Source: Methylomonas methanica MC09 (lineage in GTDB: Bacteria > Pseudomonadota > Gammaproteobacteria > Methylococcales > Methylomonadaceae). From it: a DNA stretch of 64,000 nt. Position numbers and translations under genes: made by a program. Every line of letters begins with the position of its first letter. Positions within the stretch are counted from its first letter, which is position 1. The stretch spans positions 4,960,001 to 5,024,000 of the forward strand of contig NC_015572.1 in the NCBI RefSeq assembly GCF_000214665.1, in the 5' to 3' direction. The notes beneath the pieces are model-generated. The model worked only from the letters and a program-made list of their open reading frames with translations, was not told the origin of the DNA and did not search any database. Below, one piece after another: positions 691 through 45,582 of the stretch.

Positions 691-1164
691 TCATAAATAA
701 ACCCAGTCGCTGAAATAGGCGGCCTGTCCTTGGTACTCACCTTGCCGGCCGTAAAGGTTCCAGATCACCGCGTTATCGATCCGGAAACGGCGGCCGGTTT
801 TGGAGACGCGAATGCCGGTATAATTTTCCACAAAGCCGGTTGCGGTGACTTTGGCCATCAAGCGTTCGCGGGCTTGGTGATTTTCCGGTTCTACCGACAA
901 GCGAGACGGCATGCCGATCAATTCGTCCCAGCTCAATTCGAACAAATCCATGGCTTTTTGATTGGCGTAATTGAATAACGGGTCCGGGTCGGTATTGTGT
1001 GAGAGCAGGGCGAATTCGGCGGTAAAGAGCTTCTGCCCCAGTGTGTCTGCGTCAGTGTTTTCCGTGAAACGCCGCTGCAACAGGTTTTCATAACTGTCGA
1101 CGAGTAGCGCTATATGGTCGCGGTAAAAATCATTGGCCTCGCTAGGCATCGGCATTTTTAGCAT
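691..1164 (-). CDS. MEKHLA domain (PAS-like) protein
   Basis: A 157-residue single-domain protein. The central part (FNYANQKAMDLFELSWDELIGMPSRLS, given here only as a landmark from about residue 62) and the later TGRRFRIDNAVIWNL stretch match the MEKHLA family, a PAS-related sensory fold found alone in bacteria and at the end of some plant transcription factors. No output domain is attached, so it may act through a partner. A GGAGG lies about 10 bases before the first ATG, and a second in-frame ATG three codons on is also possible. It is transcribed alone. Ligand and role are unknown. Confidence 0.8.
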   Translation of the reverse strand: MLKMPMPSEANDFYRDHIALLVDSYENLLQRRFTENTDADTLGQKLFTAEFALLSHNTDPDPLFNYANQKAMDLFELSWDELIGMPSRLSVEPENHQARERLMAKVTATGFVENYTGIRVSKTGRRFRIDNAVIWNLYGRQGEYQGQAAYFSDWVYL

Positions 1165-1337
1165 AGGTTATTCGGCCTCCTTGAATTTTATGATCGTTAT
1201 GGCCACTTTGGGCTGGGTACAGGCTCCGAATATTATCATTAGATTAAAAAAATCCATTCGCGCTGATAAGGACTAAACTTTGCTGACTAGCCACAGTCAA
1301 TTGATGCGGTTGACTCTTTATATAATCGAGGTGATTC

Positions 1338-1604
1338 ATGTCCATACAAAACGAGTTCGAAAATTTGCTCAACAAGCTGAACACCGAGCGCGAAGAGCTG
1401 CAACTGAAACTGCATCTTGCCAGCCTGGAGGCCAAGGATGAATTCGAACAGGCCGAGCAGCACTGGCAGCAAATCAAGCAAAAAGCGACGGAAATAGCTG
1501 ACGATTCCATCGAAACCTCGGACGATTTTATCGCTAAAGCGAAAATCGTCGGCGAGGAGCTTAAGGAAACTTATCAGCGTATCGCCAAACGTTTAGCCGA
1601 ATAA
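1338..1604 (+). CDS. Small coiled-coil protein, unknown function
   Basis: 88 residues, rich in Glu, Lys, Gln and Ala with leucines at heptad-like spacing (NEFENLLNKLNTEREELQ onwards). It looks like a nearly all-helical, soluble coiled coil with no signal peptide or membrane segment. GAGGTG sits just before the ATG at 1338, supporting the start. I do not recognise a named family. Codon use resembles the neighbouring housekeeping genes. Confidence 0.7.
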   Translation: MSIQNEFENLLNKLNTEREELQLKLHLASLEAKDEFEQAEQHWQQIKQKATEIADDSIETSDDFIAKAKIVGEELKETYQRIAKRLAE

Positions 1605-1732
1605 AGCCGCTGAGTGGAACGGATAAATCTCCGGCCTAACTTAGTCTCTCGACGCCGCAATTAATTTACAGGTAATTATCAACCCGCCCGACCCCGATAA
1701 ATCAACCCTGCTTCTGTACAAGGTGTAGCAAG

Positions 1733-2170
1733 ATGATCCTAATTCTGAAAAGAATCAGCCAGTCCACCCTAATTCCCGATATTGAGTCGTTTATCCGGCC
1801 CTCGCTAAAGGGCGGGCTATTTACCAAATCCGGTCAATTGGAAAAGATCAGCATTCAGATGTTGCAGGCGGCCAATTCGGATAATGCCGAGTTTAACGCC
1901 TTGGTACGCATAGAACCCGATGCGGTCGCCAAGCGGGTTATCAAACAGTTAAACAGAAAACCGCTAAACGGCAAACTTATCAATATCGCCGAATATTATT
2001 TGCGACTTCGCGGCAACGACCGGCGCAATACGGCTCATCAGCCAGCGACCGACAGACGCCGGAAAGAACGCAGGCGTTTGGATTTACAGCTCATCGACAT
2101 CACCGCGCAAAGAAAAACCTTGGCCGCCACTCAGACCATCAAGGGCTGGGAAACCGATATTACGCTTTAG
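1733..2170 (+). CDS. Conserved unknown protein, possibly RRM-like
   Basis: 145 residues, started at an ATG preceded by AAGGTG. The first ~90 residues alternate strand-like and helix-like stretches, ending in KPLNGKLINIAEYYLR. This resembles the last part of an RNA-recognition-motif fold (LNGR-x-I-x-V). The next ~30 residues are very basic (RGNDRR, DRRRKERRR), consistent with nucleic-acid binding. The classical aromatic RNP1/RNP2 residues are not obvious, so the fold call is tentative. It converges on the fumarase gene with only 30 bp between stops. Confidence 0.6.
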   Translation: MILILKRISQSTLIPDIESFIRPSLKGGLFTKSGQLEKISIQMLQAANSDNAEFNALVRIEPDAVAKRVIKQLNRKPLNGKLINIAEYYLRLRGNDRRNTAHQPATDRRRKERRRLDLQLIDITAQRKTLAATQTIKGWETDITL

Positions 2171-2200
2171 ACGGCGCTCAATTACAGGTCTCCGGCCGGT

Positions 2201-3721
2201 TTATTCCACTACAACGGGAATTTTGCCGATCTTGGCCTGCCACTTTTTAGGCGCTGTATTGTGAATGGACTCGCCGCGACTATCCACGGCCACGGTGACC
2301 GGCATGTCTTCAACCACGAATTCGTGTATCGCCTCCATACCCAACTCCGGAAAAGCCACGATACGGGCTTGCCGAATGGCTTTGGACACCAAATACGCCG
2401 CACCGCCGACCGCGATCAAATAGACGGACCGATGCTTCTTGATGGCCTCTACCGCCGCCGGCCCGCGCTCGGCCTTGCCTATCATGCCCAATAGCCCGGT
2501 TCTTTCCAGCACCGTGTCGGTAAATTTATCCATGCGGGTGGCGGTCGTCGGCCCGGCAGGCCCCACCACTTCGTCACGCACTGGATCGACCGGACCCACG
2601 TAGTAAATGAATTTGTTGTGAAAATCGACCCCGTTCGGCAACGGCTCGCCCTTGGCCAATAAATCCACGATGCGCTTATGCGCGGCATCGCGGCCGGTCA
2701 ACAGACTGCCGCTGATTAACAGGGTTTCTCCCGGCTGCCATTCGGCAATGTCCTGCTTGGTTAATTGATCGATATTAACCCGGCGGGCATTGCCGCCGGT
2801 CTGGCTGATTTGCGGCCAATCGTCCAGCTTGGGCGGTACCAACAAAGCCGGGCCGGAACCGTCCAGCACGAAATGCGCATGACGGGTGGCGGCGCAATTG
2901 GGAATCATCGCTACCGGTTTATTGGCGGCATGGGTTGGGTAATCCAGGATTTTCACATCCAGTACAGTGGTTAAGCCGCCCAAGCCTTGAGCGCCTATGC
3001 CCAAGGCGTTGACTTTTTCATACAGCTCCAGCCGCAATTCTTCCAGCGCATTGCTCGGCCCTCGGGCGATTAAATCCTGAATGTCTATCGAACCCATGCA
3101 GGCCTGCTTGGCCAAAATCATGGCTTTTTCGGCGGTACCGCCGATGCCGATACCTAAAATACCCGGCGGACACCAGCCTGCCCCCATGGTCGGTACGGTT
3201 TTCATCACCCAGTCGACGATACTGTCGGACGGGTTGAGCATGACGAACTTGGACTTGGCTTCCGAGCCGCCACCCTTGGCGGCCAATTCCACGTCGACTT
3301 TATCGCCCGGCACCACTTCCATGTGTATCACCGCCGGCGTGTTGTCCTTGGTATTAATCCGTTTACCGGCCGGGTCGGACAGAATCGAGGCTCGCAACAC
3401 GTTATCCGGCTGCAGATACGCGCGCCGCACGCCTTCGTTGACCATGTCGCCGACGCCTAATTCGGCGTCCCAGCGCACGTCCATACCGATTTTTAAAAAC
3501 ACCGTGACGATGCCAGTGTCCTGGCAAATCGGCCGCCGGCCTTCCGCGCACATCCGCGAATTGATCAGAATCTGCGCCATGGCGTCCTTAGCCGCCGGAC
3601 TTTGCTCCTTTTGATAAGCAGCATACAGCGCGTCGATAAAATCTTTTGGGTGGTAGTACGAGATGTACTGTAGCGCATCGGCGATGCTTTGAATGAAATC
3701 GTCTTGGCGGATGGTAGTCAT
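2201..3721 (-). CDS. fumA: Class I fumarate hydratase (iron-sulfur)
   Basis: 506 residues. It catalyses reversible hydration of fumarate to malate in the TCA cycle and is oxygen-sensitive through a [4Fe-4S] cluster. Landmarks: RRPICQDTGI (first cluster Cys), MGAGWCPPGILGIGIGGT and MIPNCAATRHAHF (further Cys), then the C-terminal beta domain with FVVEDMPVTVAVDSRG. The likely start is the ATG at 3721 (MTTIRQDDF); the longer frame begins with TTG. It is shorter than E. coli FumA (548). It is the last gene of a same-strand run metH-yqhA-glutaredoxin-fumA, 60 bp after the glutaredoxin stop, so co-transcription is possible. Confidence 0.93.
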   Translation of the reverse strand: MTTIRQDDFIQSIADALQYISYYHPKDFIDALYAAYQKEQSPAAKDAMAQILINSRMCAEGRRPICQDTGIVTVFLKIGMDVRWDAELGVGDMVNEGVRRAYLQPDNVLRASILSDPAGKRINTKDNTPAVIHMEVVPGDKVDVELAAKGGGSEAKSKFVMLNPSDSIVDWVMKTVPTMGAGWCPPGILGIGIGGTAEKAMILAKQACMGSIDIQDLIARGPSNALEELRLELYEKVNALGIGAQGLGGLTTVLDVKILDYPTHAANKPVAMIPNCAATRHAHFVLDGSGPALLVPPKLDDWPQISQTGGNARRVNIDQLTKQDIAEWQPGETLLISGSLLTGRDAAHKRIVDLLAKGEPLPNGVDFHNKFIYYVGPVDPVRDEVVGPAGPTTATRMDKFTDTVLERTGLLGMIGKAERGPAAVEAIKKHRSVYLIAVGGAAYLVSKAIRQARIVAFPELGMEAIHEFVVEDMPVTVAVDSRGESIHNTAPKKWQAKIGKIPVVVE

Positions 3722-4015: not shown

Positions 4016-4515
4016 CCGTGTTTGGATATTTTATCCAGATAACCCATGATAAAGGCCGAAATCACCAGCGTCAGATGGATCACCACAAACCACAGCATTT
4101 TGTCGTTTTCGGTGTTTTCCACTTCCATAAACACTTTCAACAAACGGATCGAGGAAATGGCCACGATCGATGTCGCCACTTTCAACTTTAGCGAACCGTA
4201 ATCGTGCGTGCCCAGCCATTCCAGCTTTTCGGCCTCGCTACCGATATCCAACCGGGAGACGAAATTTTCGTAACCGCTGAACATCACAATCAACGTCAAA
4301 CTGCCGACCAGAGTCAGGTCGATAAAGGTCAACAGTTTCAAAATGATTTGGCCGTCGTCAACCTCTAAAATATGCGGCACGAAGTGATACAACTCCTGGA
4401 AAAACTTTATGGCCAGCATCAACAAAATCAGACTCATGCCCAGAAATACCGGCGCCATGATCCAGCGGCTGGCGTACATCAACCGCTCCAGAAAGTGTTC
4501 GAGACGTAATTGCAT
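4012..4515 (-). CDS. UPF0114 / YqhA-type integral membrane protein
   Basis: 167 residues from the ATG at 4515 ([18 protein letters not shown]), which matches the usual start and length of the YqhA family. There are about four hydrophobic segments: [44 protein letters not shown]; and the C-terminal [20 protein letters not shown]. The ESIR/ISSIRLL region is typical of the family. Function unknown. It lies 14 bp after metH and overlaps the glutaredoxin start. Confidence 0.85.
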
Positions 4516-4529
4516 GGAGTTTACCGTGG

Positions 4530-7500
4530 TTAATGGTGTAAATGCGCGGCCAGCCAACGCTCGGCGACTTCCAAATTAATGCCTTTACGTTTGGCGTAAT
4601 CCTGCAACTGATCTTGATCGATCTTACCGACGTTGAAATATTGCGATTCGGGGTGCGAGAAATACCAGCCGCTGACGGCTGCGGTCGGGTACATCGCAAA
4701 ATTCTCGGTCAGTTCGATAGTTGTCGATTCGGTTACATTCAACAACTCGAACAACTTGGCTTTTTCGGTATGGTCCGGGCAAGCCGGGTAACCGGGGGCC
4801 GGGCGAATACCCTGATAAGCCTCTTCGATCAAGTCATGGTTGTCGTGGGTTTCTTCCGCGGCGTAACCCCAATACTCTTTTCGCACTTTTTGATGCATGC
4901 ATTCGGCAAACGCTTCCGCCAAGCGGTCTGCCAAGGCTTTCAACATGATGCTGCTGTAATCGTCATGGTCTTTTTCGAATTCGGCCAGTTTGGTTTCGAT
5001 GCCGATACCGGCAGTCACGGCAAAGCCGCCCATATAATCGGCAATACCGCTGCCGACCGGCGCGATAAAGTCGGACAGGCAGTAGTTGGGGCGCCCCGGT
5101 GCCTTGACGTTTTGCTGGCGCAAATGATGCAGCACGTCGCGCTGCTGGGTGCGGCTGTCGTCGGTGTAAAGCACAATGTCGTCATCGATGCTATTGGCCG
5201 GGAAGAAGCCGATCACAGCTTTCGCGGTCAACCATTGCTCATCGACGAGCTGTTTCAGCATCGCCTGAGCATCCGCAAACAGTTTGCTGGCTTCGATGCC
5301 GACCACTTGATCGCTAAGAATGGCAGGGTACCGGCCGGACAGTTCCCAGGTCTGAAAAAACGGTGTCCAGTCGATATACGACACTAAGCTATCGAGGGGA
5401 AAATGATCGATAACCTGGATACCCAGAAATTTGGGTTTTACCGGCCGATACCCTGCAAAATCGAATTTATTGTGCCGGGCTTTTTGCAGATCAAGCTGCG
5501 GATTTTTGGCGTGGCGGCCCTTATGCCGTTCCCGCACCTGCTCGTATTCGGCACGGGTTTTTTCGACGAATTCGGCCTTTTGATCCTCGCTAAGCAAAGC
5601 GCTGACCACGCCAACGCTACGGGATGCGTCGGTTACATAAATGGTCGGATGCTGATAATTCGGCTCGATTTTGACGGCGGTGTGCGCGCGCGAGGTGGTA
5701 GCCCCGCCGATCATCAGCGGTATAGTGAAACCCTGGCGCTGCATTTCCTTGGCTACATGCACCATTTCATCCAGAGACGGGGTAATCAAGCCGCTCAGAC
5801 CGATGACATCGACTTTTTCTTCGCGGGCGGTTTTTAAAATGGTGTCGGCGGGCACCATCACGCCCAGGTCGATGACTTCGTAGTTGTTGCATTGCAGCAC
5901 CACGGCGACGATGTTTTTGCCGATATCGTGCACATCGCCTTTTACCGTGGCCATCAACACTTTACCGTTGGTTTGGCGGACGGAACCGTCCACTTCCGCA
6001 TCCATGAACGGCATTAAATAGGCCACGGCTTTTTTCATGACCCGGGCGGATTTCACCACCTGCGGCAAAAACATCTTGCCTTCGCCAAACAAGTCGCCCA
6101 CCACGTTCATGCCGTCCATCAAAGGGCCTTCGATCACGTGCAAGGGTTTTTCCGCTTCCTGCAGGGCCTGTTCGGTGTCTTCATCGATGTAATCGGCAAT
6201 GCCCTTCACCAACGCATGTTCCAGACGTTTGCTGACCGGCCACTCCCGCCATTCCAGGGTTTCCTGTTTGGCCACCTGCCCAGTGCCGCGATATTTTTCG
6301 GCAATTTCCAGCAGCTTTTCCGTGCCCTCCGGGGTACGATTCAAAATCACATCCTCCACCGTGTCGCGCAGTTCGCTTGGAATATCGGCATAAATCGCCA
6401 GTTGCCCGGCATTGACGATACCCATGTCCATACCCGCCTGAATGGCGTGATACAGGAACACGGCGTGAATGGCTTCCCGCACCGGATTGTTGCCGCGAAA
6501 CGAGAAGGATACGTTGGACACGCCGCCGGAAATCAGGGCATGCGGCAAGGTTTGCTTGATGATACGGGTGGCTTCGATGAAATCCACGCCGTAATTGTTA
6601 TGCTCCTCGATACCGGTGGCTACCGCGAAGATGTTCGGGTCGAAAATAATGTCTTCCGGCGGAAAGCCGATTTGCTCGGTCAAAATCTTGTAGGCGCGAG
6701 TGCAAATCTCGATTTTGCGCTGCATGGTGTCGGCCTGGCCTTGCTCGTCAAACGCCATGACAATCACCGCCGCGCCGTAACGGCGTACCAATTTGGCGTG
6801 TTTGATGAAGGCTTCCTCGCCTTCCTTGATCGATATGGAATTGACAACGCCTTTGCCCTGAATACATTTCAAGCCGGCTTCCAGAATTTCCCATTTTGAG
6901 GAATCCAGCATGATAGGCACTTTGGCAATGTCCGGCTCGGCAGCCAGCAGATTCAAAAAGCGCACCATGGCCGCTTTTGAATCCAGCATGCCTTCATCCA
7001 TGTTGATGTCTATGATTTGCGCGCCGTTTTCCACCTGCTGTTTGGCAACTTCCAAAGCATCCTCGTAGCGCTCTTCGATGATCATTTTCTTGAAAATTGC
7101 CGAGCCGGTAACATTGGTACGTTCACCGACGTTCACAAACAAAGTCTCCGGCCCTATGCTCATGGCTTCCAAGCCGGCAAGGTGGCAGCGCTTTTCCAGT
7201 TCGGGAATTTGCCGGGGCGGATATTTGCCGACCGCCTCGACTATGGCGCGAATGGTATCCGGGGAGGTACCGCAACAGCCGCCAATGATATTCAAATAGC
7301 CGCTGGCCGCCCAGTCGGCCAATTCTGCGGCCATTTGTTCCGGCGTTTCATCGTATTCGCCGAATTCGTTAGGTAAGCCGGCATTGGGGTGAGCGGATAC
7401 ATAGGTATCCGCGATATTGGATAATTCTTCAATGTATTGGCGTAATTCCTGAGCTCCCAAGGCACAGTTAAAACCGATGGAAATGGGTTTGACATGTTTT

Positions 7501-38173: not shown

Positions 38174-38482
38174 TTAGCCACTCCCGTTTGAATGACGGGT
38201 TAGCCATTTGAGCAACCCGAAAGCAACAGCCCACCAAATTAAGAAGAAAACGCCGCCGAGAATAATTAGATGAGAGCGCAATGGCGGAATAAAGGCGGCA
38301 AGAATTGGGGCGGCGATGAACTCGCCGTGGCCTGAAACTATGATGAAGCCAAGGCCCAGTGCGGAACAAATCGCCCTCAGATGCAACCTTATTTGAGCGG
38401 ACGAGATCACTCCGGTAATACCCCAAGCGCATGCAAACAACAGTGCGCCATAAACAAAAAGATGAATTTGCTCGATGCGCAT
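38174..38482 (-). CDS. Cassette gene: small multi-span membrane protein
   Basis: 102 residues with three hydrophobic stretches (VYGALLFACAWGITGVI; ICSALGLGFIIVSG; HLIILGGVFFLIWWAVAFGLL). No family recognised. Last (leftmost) gene of the cassette run. Its upstream side carries attC-like site B; on its downstream side I see only an imperfect palindrome (AATCCA...TGGATT, 38121-38155) and no clear attC. Confidence 0.65.
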   Translation of the reverse strand: MRIEQIHLFVYGALLFACAWGITGVISSAQIRLHLRAICSALGLGFIIVSGHGEFIAAPILAAFIPPLRSHLIILGGVFFLIWWAVAFGLLKWLTRHSNGSG

Positions 38483-38501
38483 ATCAGTTAGTACCGGATA
38501 T

Positions 38502-38545
38502 GGCTAACGCAAAGCCAAGCCGACCGCCGAAGCAGCGGGTTAGGC
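38502..38545 (-). repeat. attC-like site B
   Basis: On the minus strand it begins GCCTAAC and ends GTTAGCC, with a GC-rich inner part (CCGC...GCGG; CGGCTTGGC). At 44 bp it is short for attC, so the call is moderate. It lies between the stop at 38549 and the start at 38482. Confidence 0.5.
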
Positions 38546-38548
38546 GAT

Positions 38549-38881
38549 TTAATCACCATTGCCAATACCTAAATCCCAGAGTACATCGCATTTGCTACAG
38601 TATGCGCTCCAATTGTCTGGAGTTTCCTTTCTTGAGCTCTTGGTTTTTGTTTTGCCATGACAGGTTGGGCATGGAACATGGTATAGCTTATAAAAGGACA
38701 TGGCGAAAACTAGGCAGCCATATCCAAGAATGAAAATTACTATGTACCCAATAAGATAGCTATTGCGCGTTAAAAACTCATTAGCCATATAGGCACCTGC
38801 CTGACTGGCGATTAGTAGCAACCCAAGAAAAATAAAGTGTTTTTTGGGGATGGCAAAATTTTCATGTTTTTTAACACGCAT
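38549..38881 (-). CDS. Cassette gene: membrane protein with zinc-ribbon tail
   Basis: 110 residues. Two membrane segments (HFIFLGLLLIASQAGAYM; YLIGYIVIFILGYGCLVFAM) are followed by a cytoplasmic tail with CPTCHG ... CSKC, four Cys in zinc-ribbon spacing. No named family. Low-GC codon use relative to core genes. Confidence 0.65.
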   Translation of the reverse strand: MRVKKHENFAIPKKHFIFLGLLLIASQAGAYMANEFLTRNSYLIGYIVIFILGYGCLVFAMSFYKLYHVPCPTCHGKTKTKSSRKETPDNWSAYCSKCDVLWDLGIGNGD

Positions 38882-38900
38882 AGCGAAAATTTTATGTTCC

Positions 38901-38976
38901 GTCTAACGCTGTAAATAACCTGACGCGAAAAGCGCACAGCAGTTTTTGCGGTCCGAGTTAATTTGCCTTGTTATGA
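38901..38976 (-). repeat. attC-like site C
   Basis: 76 bp. On the minus strand it runs from TCATAAC to GTTAGAC, the latter a perfect GTTRRRY core. Imperfect inner arms include GACCGCAAAAA opposite GACGCGAAAA on the other strand. The TAA stop of the GNAT gene is inside the first core, as is typical of integron cassettes. Confidence 0.75.
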
Positions 38977-39408
38977 GTTCCATTCCAATTTGTAAAACGC
39001 CTTATCTTCATCAAACTGTTTAAAACCCAATTTAATGTAAAAGTGCTTGACTGGATTAGCTTTTATAACACTAAGTTTTAAAGGCAACGACTTCTTTCTG
39101 GCTGTATCTTGAAGGTATTCGATTATTCTTCTTCCTATGCCTTGCTGCTGGTACTCTGGTTTGATAATGATAATTTCCAACCAAAAGTGGTCGTCATTTT
39201 GATTTAAGACGAACCCGCCAAATTCCTTACGCCCTGCACTGATTATTATCCACTTCGTTGGGCTTAAGTTCTCGCAAAACCCTTTTCTTTGAAATGACTC
39301 ATCCCAGCCCCAAGTAGCCTCAATACATGGCTTCATTGTTTTACAGTAAAGATCATAAAGCCATTCCTGATCTCTCTGTTCACCATTCCTAATCTGGTAA
39401 CCTTTCAT
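38971..39408 (-). CDS. Cassette gene: GNAT N-acetyltransferase
   Basis: 145 residues from the ATG at 39408; another ATG at 39423 lies on the attC core itself. IIIIKPEYQQQGIGRRIIEY is the acetyl-CoA-binding Q/R-x2-G-x-G/A motif, and NPVKHFYIKLGFKQF is the C-terminal GNAT signature. Substrate unknown; GNAT genes are common integron cargo. Confidence 0.85.
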   Translation of the reverse strand: MKGYQIRNGEQRDQEWLYDLYCKTMKPCIEATWGWDESFQRKGFCENLSPTKWIIISAGRKEFGGFVLNQNDDHFWLEIIIIKPEYQQQGIGRRIIEYLQDTARKKSLPLKLSVIKANPVKHFYIKLGFKQFDEDKAFYKLEWNS

Positions 39409-39419
39409 GGTTTCACGAC

Positions 39420-39536
39420 TCATAACGCCCCAATCACCGGACCGGCGAAGTGGAGCAATTTTTGTGGTACAAGAGCGGAGCGATACCACAAAAATTGTGG
39501 AGCGTAGCTGGCTCCGCGTGCATTGGCTTGTTATGC
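39420..39536 (-). repeat. attC-like site D (long, VCR-type)
   Basis: 117 bp. On the minus strand it goes from GCATAAC to GTTATGA. Inner arms include CCACAATTTTTGTGG against CCACAAAAATTG. The length and TAAC/GTTATG ends resemble Vibrio-type repeats. Confidence 0.8.
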
Positions 39537-39571
39537 GCATGTTGCACTTGTAAGTTGATTTTAGGCTCTGT

Positions 39572-39907
39572 CTATTCTGAAAAATATTGATATTTCGATA
39601 CAATGTTTCCCTCTTTAGAAAACCCGAAACCATATGCATGCAGGAAAAAATTGTATCTTATCCAATCAACACATTCGCCTTTATTATCACCCAACAAATG
39701 TCCATCATCACCCCACCAAAGCCATTTTCCACATTGCTCGCTACCATCAGGTTTACCTAGCACTGCGATAATCGATTTTTTACTGTCCCCCATTTTTGCC
39801 GATTTGAAAACTCTATCAACTTTGTTCTCACTATAAAAACACAGAGAAGGATAGATGCCTAAAATAGCAAGTGTTAGTAGCACAACAATTATTTTATTTT
39901 TTTTCAT
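39572..39907 (-). CDS. Cassette gene: small exported BamE-like protein
   Basis: 111 residues with a hydrophobic signal (KIIVVLLTLAILGIYPSLCF), then VFKSAKMGDSKKSIIAVLGKPD. This resembles the start of the SmpA/BamE-like fold common in small cassette-borne lipoproteins. No clear lipobox, so it may be periplasmic or anchored. Function unknown. Confidence 0.65.
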   Translation of the reverse strand: MKKNKIIVVLLTLAILGIYPSLCFYSENKVDRVFKSAKMGDSKKSIIAVLGKPDGSEQCGKWLWWGDDGHLLGDNKGECVDWIRYNFFLHAYGFGFSKEGNIVSKYQYFSE

Positions 39908-39945
39908 CCGCTAAATCTTTTGAACACTTCGATTAACGTTCGGCC

Positions 39946-40033
39946 GCATAACGATGAATATAACTGGCGGCTAAAAGTATTGCGTCGATAGGAGCAATGC
40001 TTTTAGCCGTCCGCGTTAATATTTTTGTTAAAT
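39946..40033 (-). repeat. attC-like site E
   Basis: 88 bp. On the minus strand it runs from ATTTAAC (perfect RYYYAAC) to GTTATGC. Long arms GACGGCTAAAAGCATTGC and GCAATACTTTTAGCCGCC pair with a single mismatch and small offsets. Confidence 0.8.
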
Positions 40034-40044
40034 TGTTTCAAATA

Positions 40045-40356
40045 TTAAAGAAAATTCCTATAAAATTTAATAGCGAATAAAATAGCAAAAATACCGCCGA
40101 CAGCAGAAAAAGATATTTGTACTATTGCATTAAATTCAGTTGATTTTTCAGCTAAGTAATCTCTATAAACTCTTAAACCAACAGATAGCATTAAATTTGT
40201 GGCGAAAATAACCCATGCTAAAAGTGCAACATTCATTTCTTCAATAGTTAATTTTTCCCCCGTTTCTTTTGTACTTACAATAAACATAAGAATTGAAGCT
40301 CCTGAAACCCAAAGAATATCAACTGCCCATTGTATTACCCTAAATTTATTTATCAT
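40045..40356 (-). CDS. Cassette gene: three-span membrane protein
   Basis: 103 residues from the ATG at 40356; an upstream ATG at 40374 would add six residues. Hydrophobic segments: AVDILWVSGASILMFIV, MNVALLAWVIFATNLMLSVGL, and ISFSAVGGIFAILFAIKF. No family recognised. AT-rich. Confidence 0.6.
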   Translation of the reverse strand: MINKFRVIQWAVDILWVSGASILMFIVSTKETGEKLTIEEMNVALLAWVIFATNLMLSVGLRVYRDYLAEKSTEFNAIVQISFSAVGGIFAILFAIKFYRNFL

Positions 40357-40381
40357 ACATGGAAATTTAACCATTGATTAT

Positions 40382-40468
40382 CAGGCAAACATGCCTGCAT
40401 ATTCGGAAAATCGGGTATATTTGCCTTGATAACTTGATATTAGCCGGTAAATCAGGCAAATTTGCCTG
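40382..40468. repeat. Short palindromic repeats
   Basis: CAGGCAAACATGCCTG (40382-40397) and the perfect palindrome CAGGCAAATTTGCCTG (40453-40468) share flanks (TC before, C-G/A-TATT after), with a partial third copy between. The rest of 40469-40744 holds nothing I can name. Confidence 0.5.
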
Positions 40469-40744
40469 CGTATTAATGCTTAGCGACTGACTATAGACGA
40501 TAATGCGCCTCCGTCAAGCGCATCCAGTCGGCAACAAAAAAATACAGCCGATTTTTTGCAGTTCTTATTCTGACAACCCGGCTCAATCCCTTACGAACTC
40601 GGCGATCTTCTGCCGGTAGAACTCGTAGATCCGATTAGCGGTAGCGTAATCGGAGGAATGAAAGTCGTCACATTCGTACGATTACGCAAAGCTAAACGTC
40701 GCTAGGTAGGCTGTTTACACCGATGCGGACATTGTGGTTAGTGG

Positions 40745-41728
40745 TTAGCGGTTTACGTCCACGACCACGCGTCCTCGAACTTCACCGTTGAGGAGCCGCG
40801 CAGCGAGGGGCATCACTTCGCTCAGGCCGATTTCGTTGCTGATCGCGGCCAGTTTCGAGATATCGAGATCGCTCCCCAATCGTCGCCATGCTTCCAGTCG
40901 CTCACGCCGGGGGCACATCACGCTGTCAATGCCTGCCAGCGTCACGCCACGCAGGATGAACGGCGCGACGGTGGCCGGGAAATCCATGCCACCCGCCAGC
41001 CCACAAGCTGCGACGACGCCTCGATATTTGGTAGACGCGCAGACATTCGCAAGCGTATGGCTGCCCACGACATCCACCGCGCCGGCCCATCGCTCCTTGC
41101 CAAGGGGTTTGCCAGGTGTTTCGAATAGCGCGCGGTCCAACACCTCCACCGCGCCCAAGCTCGTGAGGTAATCAGCTTCCGCCGGCCTGCCGCTCACTGC
41201 GACGACTCTGAAGCCAAGCCGGGACAGAATCGCCGTGGCCACGCTGCCCACGCCGCCTGCGGCGCCAGTCACGAGAATCTCTCCATCGGAGGGCGTGACG
41301 CCGTGCCGCTCCAGCGTCAGCACGCAAAGCATCGCGGTGTAACCCGCGGTACCGATGGCCATCGCTTGTTGCGGCGTAAACTGTTCCGGCAGCGGCACCA
41401 ACCAGTCGCCGTTTATGCGCGCCTTTTGAGCAAGGCCGCCCCAGTGGGTTTCGCCGACTCCCCAGCCATTCAGGATCACCGAATCGCCGGTTTTGTAGTC
41501 GGGATGCGTCGAGTGCCCTACCGTCCCGGCCAGATCAATGCCGGGCACCATCGGAAACTTGCGCACCACCGGCCCCTTGCCCGTGATGGCCAGCGCGTCC
41601 TTGTAGTTGAGCGTCGAATGGCTCACCCGCACCGTCACATCGCCTTCGGGCAATCCTGCTTCGTCGAGGTCGGTTAGTGACGCGCGGTAACCTGCTTCGT
41701 CTTTCTCAATCAAAATGCCTTTGAACAT
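40745..41728 (-). CDS. acuI: MDR-family acrylyl-CoA reductase-like oxidoreductase
   Basis: 327 residues. The start [53 protein letters not shown] (landmarks) and the NADPH-binding [12 protein letters not shown] match the YhdH/AcuI family, which reduces acrylyl-CoA or quinone-like substrates. No catalytic zinc ligands. GC content and codon use are clearly higher than in the neighbouring AT-rich cassette genes, suggesting a separate origin. It lies between attC-like sites E and G, with no clear attC on its downstream side. Confidence 0.9.
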
Positions 41729-41786
41729 GGGTTTGTGTTTCTCCGTTTAGCTTAGATCAACCGCGGGTTAGCGATGCCAACGTTAG

Positions 41787-41837
41787 CCATAACCGGCGCG
41801 TTGACCAAGATCGTCCGTGATGATGGCGTGGTTAGGG
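41787..41837 (-). repeat. Weak attC-like site G
   Basis: On the minus strand it goes from CCCTAAC to GTTATGG, 51 bp, with poor inner pairing. Another core-like CGTTAG overlaps its end. Its position between two minus-strand genes fits, but the structure is weak. Confidence 0.35.
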
Positions 41838-41846
41838 ATCATTACT

Positions 41847-42461
41847 TTAATCAAAGCGAGCCCACTTGCTATTAGTAATGTTCTCACCTTCACCCACTGT
41901 GAAACTACACTCGTCTGAATTTAACCAGCGGCCAAAGGATTCGAAGTCTTGCACACGATGAAGCTCGGGCAGCGGGCTTCTTTGTGGTTCTGAGAAGTCG
42001 AAGAATACAAGCTCGTATGGGCATGCCCAAAAACATCCTTCGACGGCGAGAGTTCGCCCATCTGGTGACGGGTGGACAGCCGCCCAGCAAAAACCGTGAC
42101 CTTTGAATGCTTCCGCGGGAAAGGTAACGATGTTAGTACCAAGCGCCGGCTCGATAACGTTGTAGCCTTGGTAGTCTTCACCACAAAGAAGAAACTCCCT
42201 TCCAGTCTGTTGTACCACCCAGGTAAACCAGAACATGCCGTAATTTCGTATGATATCGGTGATTACCTGTCCGGTTGCAACGTACCGAAGTATACCTCGG
42301 CTGTAGTTCCATGAGTCTTTCCAACCGCTATAGGTCGAGATTTCTAGCGAAAAAACACCGGACGGCGAGACATGAACTTCAGTTGAGGTCTTATCCAGAA
42401 ACATTTTTGCAAAATGTTCCAAGATTTCTTCTCGCCACTCTGTGTAGCTACTGATGGTCAT
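41847..42461 (-). CDS. Cassette gene: unknown soluble protein
   Basis: 204 residues from the ATG at 42461 (MTISSYTEWREEILEHF); the longer frame starts with TTG inside attC site H. Aromatic-rich (WKDSWNYSRG, YGMFWFTWVVQQTG), with HPSPDGRTLAVEGCFWACPYELVFFDFS in the last third. That pattern looks like a beta-rich domain of the kind seen in immunity-type proteins. No family assigned. Confidence 0.65.
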   Translation of the reverse strand: MTISSYTEWREEILEHFAKMFLDKTSTEVHVSPSGVFSLEISTYSGWKDSWNYSRGILRYVATGQVITDIIRNYGMFWFTWVVQQTGREFLLCGEDYQGYNVIEPALGTNIVTFPAEAFKGHGFCWAAVHPSPDGRTLAVEGCFWACPYELVFFDFSEPQRSPLPELHRVQDFESFGRWLNSDECSFTVGEGENITNSKWARFD

Positions 42462-42470
42462 GTTGATGAG

Positions 42471-42539
42471 CTCTAACGCCAAACTCAGCGGACTAATTGA
42501 GCGCAGCGAAATTTGATCCGCTGCAGTTTCTTGTTATGA
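42471..42539 (-). repeat. attC-like site H (best example)
   Basis: 69 bp. On the minus strand it goes from TCATAAC to GTTAGAG. The arms AAACTGCAGCGGA and TCCGCTGAGTTT pair perfectly except for one unpaired base, the extrahelical base expected of attC. The TAA stop of the neighbouring gene is inside the first core. Confidence 0.85.
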
Positions 42540-43054
42540 GCCGATACCAATTTCAGGCAACTCGGACAATAGCTCACTTAGCTCCACTTCTGGATTGAGG
42601 TTCTTGGCAATTTCTTCGCTAAATTCGCCATCAAAAACTCTCTCAACCAATGAAAGATCAATTTCTCTTTCATAGTATTCTGTTGCCCAAGCCTGGTAGT
42701 CATTGGGCATCCAGTTAGCTACGACCTCAAGACCGGCCAACCCTCTTACAGGGCCGCCATACTTTACCCAATCAGCCCCCTCCAAATACCAAATGCAGGA
42801 GGCTTTATCCATTGAGAAGGCAGGCTCAGTAACAAACTCACTGTAACCGGACGGTGCTCTAGATTTCGCCTCATCAAGATCGTGCATTTGACCGTCTTCT
42901 GGGCTAAAGCACTTATATGCGGCAAATCCTCCCGACATCCAAAGGAACCACTCTCCTCCACAGCCATCACGGAGAGACGCCATCTCTTCGTTATCGGACC
43001 ATTTAGAATTGTACGAGAAATAACGGTATTGCCACTCTTGCTCGATAATAGCAT

Positions 43055-44134
43055 CTAGTGTAACGTCCTCAACATTTCTTTAGCTTTGGCGACTTTGGTT
43101 AAGATGGCATCTGGAGTCGCCGTCCATTGATAAGGTTTTGGGTGAAGATTGCGATGATCAAGGTACTGCATGATAGCCTGCTTCAGCTCGTCGACGCTAC
43201 GTAACACCCCACGCCGGATGCGTTCTTCGGTGATGTCCCGAAAGAATCGCTCAACCAAATTCACCCAGGATGCCGACGTCGGGGTAAAGTGCATCTGGAA
43301 GCGCGGATGCTTGTCCAGCCAGGCTTTCACGTTGGGATGCTTGTGAGTGGCGTAGTTGTCGACGATCAGGTGGACGGCTAAGTTTTTGTCGGTCCGACGG
43401 TCGAGTAGTTTCAGGAATTTCAAGAATTCATCGTTACGGTGTTTGGGTAAACATTCGCCGATCACCGTTCCTTCATGGACATTAAGGGCGGCAAACAAGG
43501 TGGTGGTACCGTGGCGTTTGTAATCATGTGTCATCGTGCCGTTCTTGCCGGGTTTTATGGGTAAACCCGGTTGCGTGCGATCCAGTGCCTGGATCTGGCT
43601 TTTCTCATCCACGGAAAACACGATGGCTTTCTCCGGCGGGTCCAAATACAGTCCCACCACGTCCCGTAACTTCTCTTCAAACTGCGGGTCGTTCGAGACC
43701 TTGAAGCCCTTGACCCGATGCGGCTTTAGCTGGTGCTCCCGCCAAATGCGATGAACAGCCATACGTGAAATACCGACCTGCTCCGCCATTGTCCGGCAAC
43801 TCCAGTGGGTGGCATGGGTCGGCTTGCCGGTCAGCGTCAACGTCAACACTTCCTGCACCTTCTCCACCGGCAATGGCGGCACTCGCGAGGGCCGCGTCTT
43901 ACCTTTTTTCAACCCATCGATACCGCACTCCACAAAACGCCGGCGCCATAAATTCAGCGTCGGCGCGCTGATCTTCAGGGTGTCCATGATCTCCTGCGAA
44001 GCTATTCGGTCCGCTGTCATCAATACAATCCGCGCCCGCAACGTCTGCTTCTCGTCTATCGCTCGGCTTTTTACCCACCGATTCAACGTAGAACGGTCTT
44101 GTTCATTCAAATCAAGTTTCATTGGTGTTCTCAT
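43055..44134 (-). CDS. IS630-family transposase
   Basis: 359 residues from the ATG at 44134. Helix-turn-helix region (QEIMDTLKISAPTLNLWRRRF), a second HTH (MAEQVGISRMAVHRIWRE), then the DDE catalytic core: FSVDEKSQIQ (D), LIVDNYATHKH (D) and SWVNLVERFF (E). The stop codon TAG is outside the element: its bases come from the TA target copy and the next host base. Appears intact. Confidence 0.93.
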   Translation of the reverse strand: MRTPMKLDLNEQDRSTLNRWVKSRAIDEKQTLRARIVLMTADRIASQEIMDTLKISAPTLNLWRRRFVECGIDGLKKGKTRPSRVPPLPVEKVQEVLTLTLTGKPTHATHWSCRTMAEQVGISRMAVHRIWREHQLKPHRVKGFKVSNDPQFEEKLRDVVGLYLDPPEKAIVFSVDEKSQIQALDRTQPGLPIKPGKNGTMTHDYKRHGTTTLFAALNVHEGTVIGECLPKHRNDEFLKFLKLLDRRTDKNLAVHLIVDNYATHKHPNVKAWLDKHPRFQMHFTPTSASWVNLVERFFRDITEERIRRGVLRSVDELKQAIMQYLDHRNLHPKPYQWTATPDAILTKVAKAKEMLRTLH

Positions 44135-44180
44135 GGGGACCAATTCTACTATTAATAATGCTTTGTCGGGGACGTTACAC
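43058..44180 (-). mobile_element. IS630-family insertion sequence
   Basis: 1123 bp. Ends read GTGTAACGTCCTCAACATTT (left, inward) and GTGTAACGTCCCCGACAAAG (right, inward), matching over the first 11 bases. TA is duplicated on both sides (43056-43057, 44181-44182) within CTAG. It sits inside a cassette gene. Confidence 0.93.
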
Positions 44181-44232
44181 TAGAAGAGCCAGTGATTTTA
44201 ATTTATTGCGCAATCGTTCGATCATGACTCAC

Positions 44233-44340
44233 TCATAACGCTAAGCTAAATTGCAGTTTTGGGGGAGCCTTTTTGTGATAGTGTTTTTTACCACAAAAAG
44301 AAGCGACGGAAAAACTGTCAATTTGAGCGTATTGTTAGTT
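44233..44340 (-). repeat. attC-like site I (long, VCR-type)
   Basis: 108 bp. On the minus strand it goes from AACTAAC to GTTATGA. Paired arms include CAAATTG/CAATTTAG-type, CAGTTTT/AAAACTG and TTTTTGTG/CACAAAAA. The stop codon at 44335 is inside the first core. Confidence 0.82.
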
Positions 44341-45102
44341 TCTTTTGTATATAGATGGGTTGCGCCAATTCCAGTGGACTTGCTTATAAGCTTCGTTTTC
44401 ACTTGCCACAAAGGAATTTATGTAGTCTTGCTCAATTAAGTTTTTGTTTTTCTCCAACTCCTCAATGTCCATAGGCGTTAACGTAAACTCATATTCATTA
44501 TCAACTAGATTAAAAGACTCTGGAGATTCAAGTTGAAAAGCAACATTATATTTCCCTGATTTCCAAGTAAAAGCATGCTTAATGTAGTTGTGAACATCAA
44601 TAGCTTCTTGACATTTTAAAAATTTCAGAGGGTCGTAACCCTCTTGCTCTCTATCGTAAGAAAGTCGCTTTATTGCCTTGTCTTCGATGTCTTTCTTTCC
44701 CGCAACGAAAGAAATTTCTTGGCATTGAATTATTCGTTCTTCAACTTCTCGCTGGCTCAATTTAATAGCAAGCACAGAGTTTTCCTTCTCATAGGGTATG
44801 GGACCATCGTTGGTATGCATTTTCATTACTTGCTGTCTTAGGCCCTGCCACTCATAGGTTTTTTCTTCCCCACTCTCGTGAGTAACATTTATTCTAAAAT
44901 TTGAGATCACTACATCACGGTTTTTTACTGAAAATGCGATACGCATATTGAATATCGGGCCATATGTGGTGAATCCGATTTCAGCAATTTTTTGTGTGAT
45001 TATCCTTACTTCGGGCTTGGTAAAGTATGCCTTAATTAAGGAGATCAAATGAGGAGTCCATGCTAAGGCCCCTAATATTGCTACCCAGTCAATAATCTTC
45101 AA
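44335..45102 (-). CDS. Cassette gene: unknown protein with N-terminal hydrophobic segment
   Basis: 255 residues from a TTG at 45102 with AGGAGG 5 bases upstream; no ATG is available. The start IIDWVAILGALAWTPHLISLI may be a membrane anchor. The rest is soluble and beta-rich at first, then helical (LEKNKNLIEQDYINSF). First (rightmost) gene of the cassette run. No family recognised. Confidence 0.7.
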   Translation of the reverse strand: MKIIDWVAILGALAWTPHLISLIKAYFTKPEVRIITQKIAEIGFTTYGPIFNMRIAFSVKNRDVVISNFRINVTHESGEEKTYEWQGLRQQVMKMHTNDGPIPYEKENSVLAIKLSQREVEERIIQCQEISFVAGKKDIEDKAIKRLSYDREQEGYDPLKFLKCQEAIDVHNYIKHAFTWKSGKYNVAFQLESPESFNLVDNEYEFTLTPMDIEELEKNKNLIEQDYINSFVASENEAYKQVHWNWRNPSIYKRN

Positions 45103-45582
45103 TTCAACCTCCTATGCTTGGTACTCTGTGAAACTAACTAGTTATTAGATAGTTTCTGTATATATACAAGAAAAGTTCCTATTCAAGGTAATCTATTGAT
45201 CTGCATATGATTTTCCATTCTGTATATCATTTTATGATCAAAAATAATGGCGGGTGATATTCTTATCGATGCCATTGAATCACTTCGACCGATAGACTGC
45301 AACGAACCCGTTTCACCCTGCCCGTTCCGAAAGAGTGATTTCGGCCGACTTTCATCCGTCGGACTGATAGGTTTTCAAAGCCGATTCCGGCAGTTGATCA
45401 CCCGCAAGGGCTACCATTCAGACATCGGCGTTCCCAACAGCGCTTAATTGTTGTAAACGCGACATACCAGGGCAGTATTTTTATATAAAAAATCAATTGC
45501 TTAAAAATTGGCGCAAATTGTGAATCACCTGAGTATGCGGAAATCAACGCGGTGTTCGCTTGCTTATCATTTTACGGTGCTT
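45103..45582. other. Non-coding edge of the cassette array
   Basis: A possible promoter for the array (minus TTGAAT at 45186-45181, then TATATATAC) lies here, along with the palindrome TAACTAGTTA (45137-45146). An inverted repeat GCGGGTGAT (45250-45258) / ATCACCCGC (45397-45405) encloses a frame that does not look like a protein. No integrase gene or convincing attI is seen. Confidence 0.4.

Follow-up and report, generated by a model that had tools for sequence, protein, structure and literature searches.

The stretch C1:4960001-5024000 of the Methylomonas methanica MC09 genome, which forms one contig of 5.05 Mb, carries integron gene cassettes between positions 38174 and 45304 of these 64,000 nucleotides (the window, to whose numbering all coordinates refer unless a locus or a distance in Mb is given). 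We conclude, with a probability of about 0.82, that the locus consists of two tandem integrons on the minus strand, both without an integrase gene and both with an attI platform of their own, and that their cassettes were most likely swapped in trans. That it is a genuine integron cassette array is confirmed. We distinguish two arrays rather than one because the chain that links cassette start cores to the R'' boxes of attC sites begins twice, at GTTAGTT (45132-45138) and at GTTAAAT (40365-40371). Array 2 comprises a head that we call attI-alpha and four cassettes, one broken by an IS630-type insertion sequence (IS) element, and has lost its last attC; array 1 comprises a second head, attI-beta, and five cassettes, with the last attC cut. 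A first-pass annotation of this DNA had described an integron cassette array without an integrase in the window, which is borne out, but had taken it for a single array with no clear attI, which was wrong on both counts. Its label, cluster of attC sites lacking an integrase (CALIN), is apt in that there is an attC cluster and no integrase in the window, but undersells the locus, since each array is headed by a recognizable attI. With at least two attC sites and no integron integrase nearby the locus falls among the CALINs, and the lack of a functional intI in cis separates it from complete integrons.

Cassettes of an integron start at a core, GTTRRRY, that is the reverse complement of the R'' box in their own attC. 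Among the eight testable window cassettes, the start core exactly complements its own R'' in six (those ending in sites I, H, E, D, C and A) and shows one mismatch in each of the cassettes ending in G and B; six exact pairs were reached by 4 of 40320 permutations. In related loci (genomes and loci are given below by G and L numbers), the alpha core matches the R'' of the downstream attC as an exact reverse complement at 21 of 35 loci, compared with a permuted mean of 2.5 and a maximum of 9 in 10000 permutations; the window is counted as a miss in this comparison because our covariance model, R1, does not see site I. The beta core complements the first attC at 8 of the 10 loci tested, the window included, with the loci that lack a model match (L236, L239, L240 and L242) left out.

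R1 was built from 13 attC sites elsewhere in the genome, outside the window, eight of them from arrays beside two IntI genes. Independent of the window, it recognizes the R''/L''/L'/R' structure of an attC site on the minus strand in site H (42471-42539; 53.5 bits, expectation value E 2.6e-12), D (39420-39536; 36.0 bits), C (38901-38976; 28.8 bits) and the short site B (38502-38545; 22.8 bits), where the score of D comes from a whole-genome search and those of H, C, B and E were obtained with filters off. Sites I (44233-44340) and E (39946-40033), also on the minus strand and both with long loops, are recognized by fold and core logic only. Fold energies relative to shuffled sequences are lowest for I (z -4.5), D (-4.4) and E (-4.3), followed by H (-2.0). 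The R'' of I (AACTAAC) complements the attI-alpha core, that of H (TCATAAC) complements the R' of I, and that of E complements the attI-beta core; core logic is exact at D and C, and the R'' of B is one base off. The first-pass annotation missed two minus-strand sites as well as the two heads. One is a degenerate attC, G (41775-41837), whose R'' (CCCTAAC) is one base off that expected and whose position corresponds to the attC preceding acuI in G005; the other is the start of a truncated attC, A (38197-38205), whose R'' (GGCTAAC, 38199-38205) complements the R' of site B and whose right half is absent.

Much of what that annotation said of the separators holds: B, C, D, E, H and I sit in the sequence where it placed them, the stop codons at 38971, 42534 and 44335 fall inside the R'' of C, H and I, and the arm of H with a single unpaired base is reproduced by folding the site as DNA, which gives 13 pairs and one base unpaired. 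Of the separators that it said fold on themselves, I, D, E and H fold better than shuffles and C and B do not. The covariance-model check that it proposed comes out positive, with H, D, C and B found, E at noise level and I missed. Over 108 R1 matches from 70 fetched sequences, 82.9% of cells are paired versus 68.0% when shuffled, and the covariation score is 0.339 versus 0.121, figures that lean towards structure because the alignment was fitted to the model. Over the whole genome R1 matched 27 times at E <= 0.01, and by our own count these matches fall into 13 separate places; within the window no Rfam family reaches threshold. A home-made palindrome scan and a fold-based pattern scan for attC were too unselective, and the covariance model replaced them.

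The head of array 2, attI-alpha (45132-45304, minus strand), is a leader of ~170 bp conserved across the genus, with a core that is the reverse complement of the R'' of site I. When 18 copies are aligned, conservation stops at ...CTATCTAATTACTA|GTTA(G), and unlike cassettes follow. A 177-base alpha query from G007 has matches in 29 of the 37 genomes of the genus, that of the window included, with 1 to 16 per genome. In a sample of the order, searched with three candidates scored per genome, alpha is present in 55 of 251 genomes and 14 of 48 genera, and the matching genomes all belong to one family. There was no match to alpha among 72,556 plasmid records, and no match in viral contigs to one exact alpha pattern, negatives that extend to these two collections. 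We retrieved the surroundings of alpha copies as 60 stretches of 3-9 kb; among 63 leader matches with the right end present, GTT stands at the core in 56 and an R1 attC follows downstream on the same strand in 35. Five of the six alpha matches in the MC09 genome lie within ~1.5 kb of an R1 match, the exception being that at 4.925 Mb. In G007 alpha adjoins a divergent IntI gene with an N-terminal extension, and by its position alpha is therefore the attI of this long IntI.

A segment of ~75 bp that we call module 1 (45231-45304 in the window, 9607-9641 in L030) stands upstream of alpha in place of intI in integrase-less copies, and in some matches it was found without the rest of alpha. The proposal that module 1 is an IntI N-terminus is unsupported, as the G007 IntI starts differently, and we also rejected a conserved small protein, since many frames stop after ~14 codons and the rest continue into unlike sequence.

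The head of array 1, attI-beta (40365-40515, minus strand), has a core that complements the R'' of site E, and the same sequence stands beside IntI in relatives, where it is the attI region of complete integrons. Beta has matches in 18 of the 37 genomes; it lies <=200 bases from IntI in G005, G008, G009, G011, G012, G013, G041 and G045, and as close to IntI pieces in G015, the adjacency having been read directly in G005, G013 and G041. A scan for a cassette promoter, Pc, in the beta stretch gave 2 sigma-70-like sites where shuffles give 1.1; one of the two (40517-40490) scores 10 of 12. A third head type, gamma, is the attI region of the intact IntI of the MC09 genome and recurs at two more cassette loci there. 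By our own assignment, 11 of the 13 R1 places in the genome carry one of the three head types, and two of these adjoin IntI; no head type is present at the R1 places at 1.14 and 4.75 Mb. That the alpha and beta heads are attI sites is supported by their position and sequence, and recombination at them by a cognate IntI is a prediction. At L030 9342-9641 two heads stand in a row, a degenerate alpha and then a gamma-type attI.

No integrase is encoded in the window, as the first-pass annotation had found: tblastn of two IntI proteins gave no match there, and a second search matched only the DNA of the beta head itself. The same tblastn gave a match at 1 of 61 alpha loci, the integron of G007. 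The search elsewhere in the genome for intI and further attC sites, which that annotation had suggested, yielded the R1 matches described above, an intact IntI at 1.708 Mb (TIGR02249, 496 bits) with its own array, and a broken IntI at 2.725 Mb with a TAG and a frame break; a genome search with Phage_integrase and TIGR02249 gave only these two above cut-off, and no beta-type IntI was found in this genome. The counterpart here of the long IntI found with alpha in G007 is broken; since no beta-type IntI turned up either, both window arrays are at present probably inactive, unless they can be served by the third IntI, which is intact. The long IntI (L219 ~1055-2530, minus strand; L026 9690-11140, plus strand), an open frame of 493 codons in G007, has an N-terminal extension of well over 100 residues. 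The array next to the broken copy also contains (L026 ~4060-6130) a fragmented tyrosine recombinase and a frame of 370 aa that by eye resembles an IS91-type transposase. A close IntI relative at 86% is present in a Methylococcaceae metagenome-assembled genome.

We compared oriented alpha loci and obtained 22 pairs with upstream homology beyond the leader; ten are orthologous loci of different species (L181/L191, L182/L205, L184/L185, L186/L187, L189/L224, L199/L208, L202/L213, L207/L215, L211/L226 and L124/L225), and the 12 pairs without long downstream resumption were not counted. In the ten pairs, flank and leader match to +2..+7 of the core, beyond which the cassettes are for the most part different and add up to different lengths; the two loci then converge again in the downstream flank, with 84-99% identity over 1.1-4.8 kb. 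No IntI match was obtained by tblastn at any of the twenty loci. The position of the breakpoint, at the core in 10 of 10 pairs, counts against homologous recombination, which would scatter breakpoints over the whole leader. The resumption point is an attC core or a shared attC in L181/L191, L199/L208 and L124/L225, and in one partner only of L189/L224; L202/L213 have some cassette pieces in common, in another order. Within one genome, the G007 platforms at 3.777 and 1.723 Mb, both integrase-less, hold a cassette that is 472/474 identical; it begins at the T of G|TT and runs as far as its attC's R' box, and the long IntI of that genome is at 3.58 Mb. Cassettes are also common to alpha platforms of different species (L183/L205, L190/L206 and L202/L204).

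The exact core/R'' logic and the halt of leader conservation at the core support placement of the cassettes at the G|TT of attI by integron-type recombination. Both window arrays are members of a group of attI platforms dispersed in the genus and family, mostly with no intI nearby. Comparison of species shows that cassettes at fixed chromosomal loci were exchanged, most likely in trans through an IntI that lies elsewhere in the genome or has since disappeared. A broader picture, to which we give slightly less than even odds, is that of a distributed integron, in which many small integrase-free attI platforms on the chromosome, with one to few cassettes each, would be loaded and exchanged in trans by one, sometimes transient, IntI, and in which the alpha platform, too, may be mobile. 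In G049 and G046, which are different species, a 771-bp block that comprises module 1, attI-alpha and a cassette, and that closes with the R' box of the cassette's attC, is 99% identical, while both flanks are unlike. Its right end fits the integron cleavage point within five bases; its left end, CGACCC, is unlike that cleavage point, and as CGACC(C) or CG is present at the junction in the flanks of neighbours too, the block cannot be shown to have a target duplication or an integron-type left end. We also looked for an empty site on the nif side in seven congeners (G006, G009, G011, G013, G017, G022 and G024); a leader is present only in G013 and, since its spacer is different, there is no clean empty site. 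In G045 a beta-headed array lies in a >2 kb duplication, 99.8% identical, at two places of one chromosome (L250, 3.77 Mb; L251, 2.24 Mb), which we do not use as evidence of unit mobility because the duplication reaches beyond the arrays.

Several observations weigh against the interpretation of the locus as two integrase-less integrons with exchange in trans. Site E scores only 10.8 bits (E 1.4), the level of chance matches elsewhere in the window, site I went undetected by R1 in a window search with filters off, and C (z +0.2), B (-0.5) and G (+0.15; run on 41777-41843, a few bases off its final bounds) fold no better than shuffles. The core/R'' test failed at 14 of the 35 alpha loci, and in six of the ten orthologous pairs there is no recognizable attC core at the downstream resumption. 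The link between alpha and IntI comes from one genome, G007, and a consensus scan of the alpha head gave no sigma-70-like promoter. Four of the 61 alpha loci end at a contig end within ~160 bases on the intI side, so that absence of IntI is not shown at these four, and in 16 of the 29 genomes that bear alpha no IntI exceeds the family cut-off; some of the 16 are incomplete drafts, and G015 and G044 among them keep IntI fragments. Sites C, B and G taken alone would suit unrelated palindromic repeats between short genes, with no integron origin, in a genus that is rich in other dispersed repeats; set against the independent covariance model, the covariation, the core/R'' logic and the exchange across species, such an origin is hardly credible.

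Plain decay deserves more weight, even if we consider it unlikely. The arrays would then be former complete integrons from which intI was deleted, with frozen cassettes, and species would differ only because exchange preceded the loss of intI at each locus. Some beta loci do keep only an N-terminal IntI stub (e.g. L247 and L243), the long IntI of the MC09 genome is broken, and CALINs are usually viewed as degraded integrons (PMC9024848). The integrase-less alpha copies, however, have the same module where intI would be, a sign that the platform lacked its integrase before it spread; a genome can hold up to 16 alpha matches, and the 472/474 cassette stands at two integrase-less platforms of G007. 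Since such platforms are dispersed over related genomes and have had their cassettes swapped, the window arrays look like outlying docking sites and not simple integron wreckage. Cassettes can also enter a genome outside the main array at scattered short sites, termed attG. A distant IntI might have inserted cassettes into such sites by chance, the heads being merely preferred attG sites. Off-target insertion is among the three origins proposed for CALINs (PMC8618304), but the heads are conserved units of 150-175 bp and not short sites, beta is the attI region of complete integrons, and alpha adjoins IntI in G007, all of which makes chance insertion very improbable.

The arrays resemble several known systems without matching any of them. 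CALINs likewise have cassettes with attC and no nearby integrase, and a trans-acting IntI has been proposed to mobilize them (PMC12444791); the arrays here differ in that an attI head is kept, heads recur many times per genome, and cassettes were exchanged at the head. A sedentary chromosomal integron shares the attI, the cassettes in one orientation and the attC sites, and the MC09 genome also has an intact IntI with an array, but here there is no integrase in cis and there are several small arrays instead of one large one. The CALINs at conserved Xanthomonas loci (PMC12444791) likewise lack an integrase and occupy fixed chromosomal positions in related species; no attI head is described in the available part of that account, whereas here a head and exchange at its core are seen. 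Insertion at attG, which PMC12444791 mentions, is similar in that cassettes outside the main array are placed in trans, but the targets here are conserved attI platforms as opposed to scattered short sites. IntegronFinder 2 counted 2961 CALINs, nearly half of the total, 2760 complete integrons and 356 In0 elements, and it seeks no attI outside class 1 (PMC9024848). Our search of open-licence PMC literature, judged by titles and the starts of abstracts, turned up no description of CALINs headed by repeated attI, a result that does not prove absence. Should a usable attI be retained by many CALINs, these would serve as docking sites: a first-position cassette could be held at several loci instead of one, and an integrase could act on them whatever its route of arrival. 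Whether CALINs are dead or alive would become a directly testable question.

All cassette genes of the window lie on the minus strand, and PADLOC gave no match for eight cassette products. In array 1, cassette 1 (40045-40356, start taken as the second Met) encodes a 103-aa protein that is hydrophobic by eye and has no Pfam match, cassette 2 (39572-39907) a 111-aa protein of unknown function, and cassette 3 (38971-39408) a GNAT acetyltransferase (Pfam Acetyltransf_7 and others). Cassette 4 (38549-38881) encodes a 110-aa protein with an 84% DNA match (38543-38882) in G020, beside which no attC was seen, and cassette 5 (38174-38482) is an open reading frame for a 102-aa protein. A dispersed repeat at 40616-40712, between acuI and attI-beta, has matches in this and many related genomes.

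In array 2, cassette 4 (40745-41728) encodes an acuI/yhdH-like zinc-type dehydrogenase (Pfam ADH_zinc_N and ADH_N) and lacks its own attC; an 89% copy is the second cassette of an alpha-headed array in G005. Cassette 3 (41847-42482) encodes a 211-aa protein of unknown function. Cassette 1 (44335-45102) encodes a 255-aa protein of unknown function with a TTG start, whose relatives at 75-82% identity are named for Vibrio, Shewanella, Enterovibrio and Microbulbifer, a spread as expected of a travelling cassette. Cassette 2 (42534-44225) is a gene of unknown function recognized from sequence on both sides of the IS element that splits it, with an open reading frame remnant at 42534-42983; the transposase gene inside it (43055-44143, minus strand) has DDE_3 and HTH Pfam matches. 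Six copies of this IS630-type element at 99-100%, the window copy included, are present in the genome, and one of them lies close beside another attC place at 4.749 Mb.

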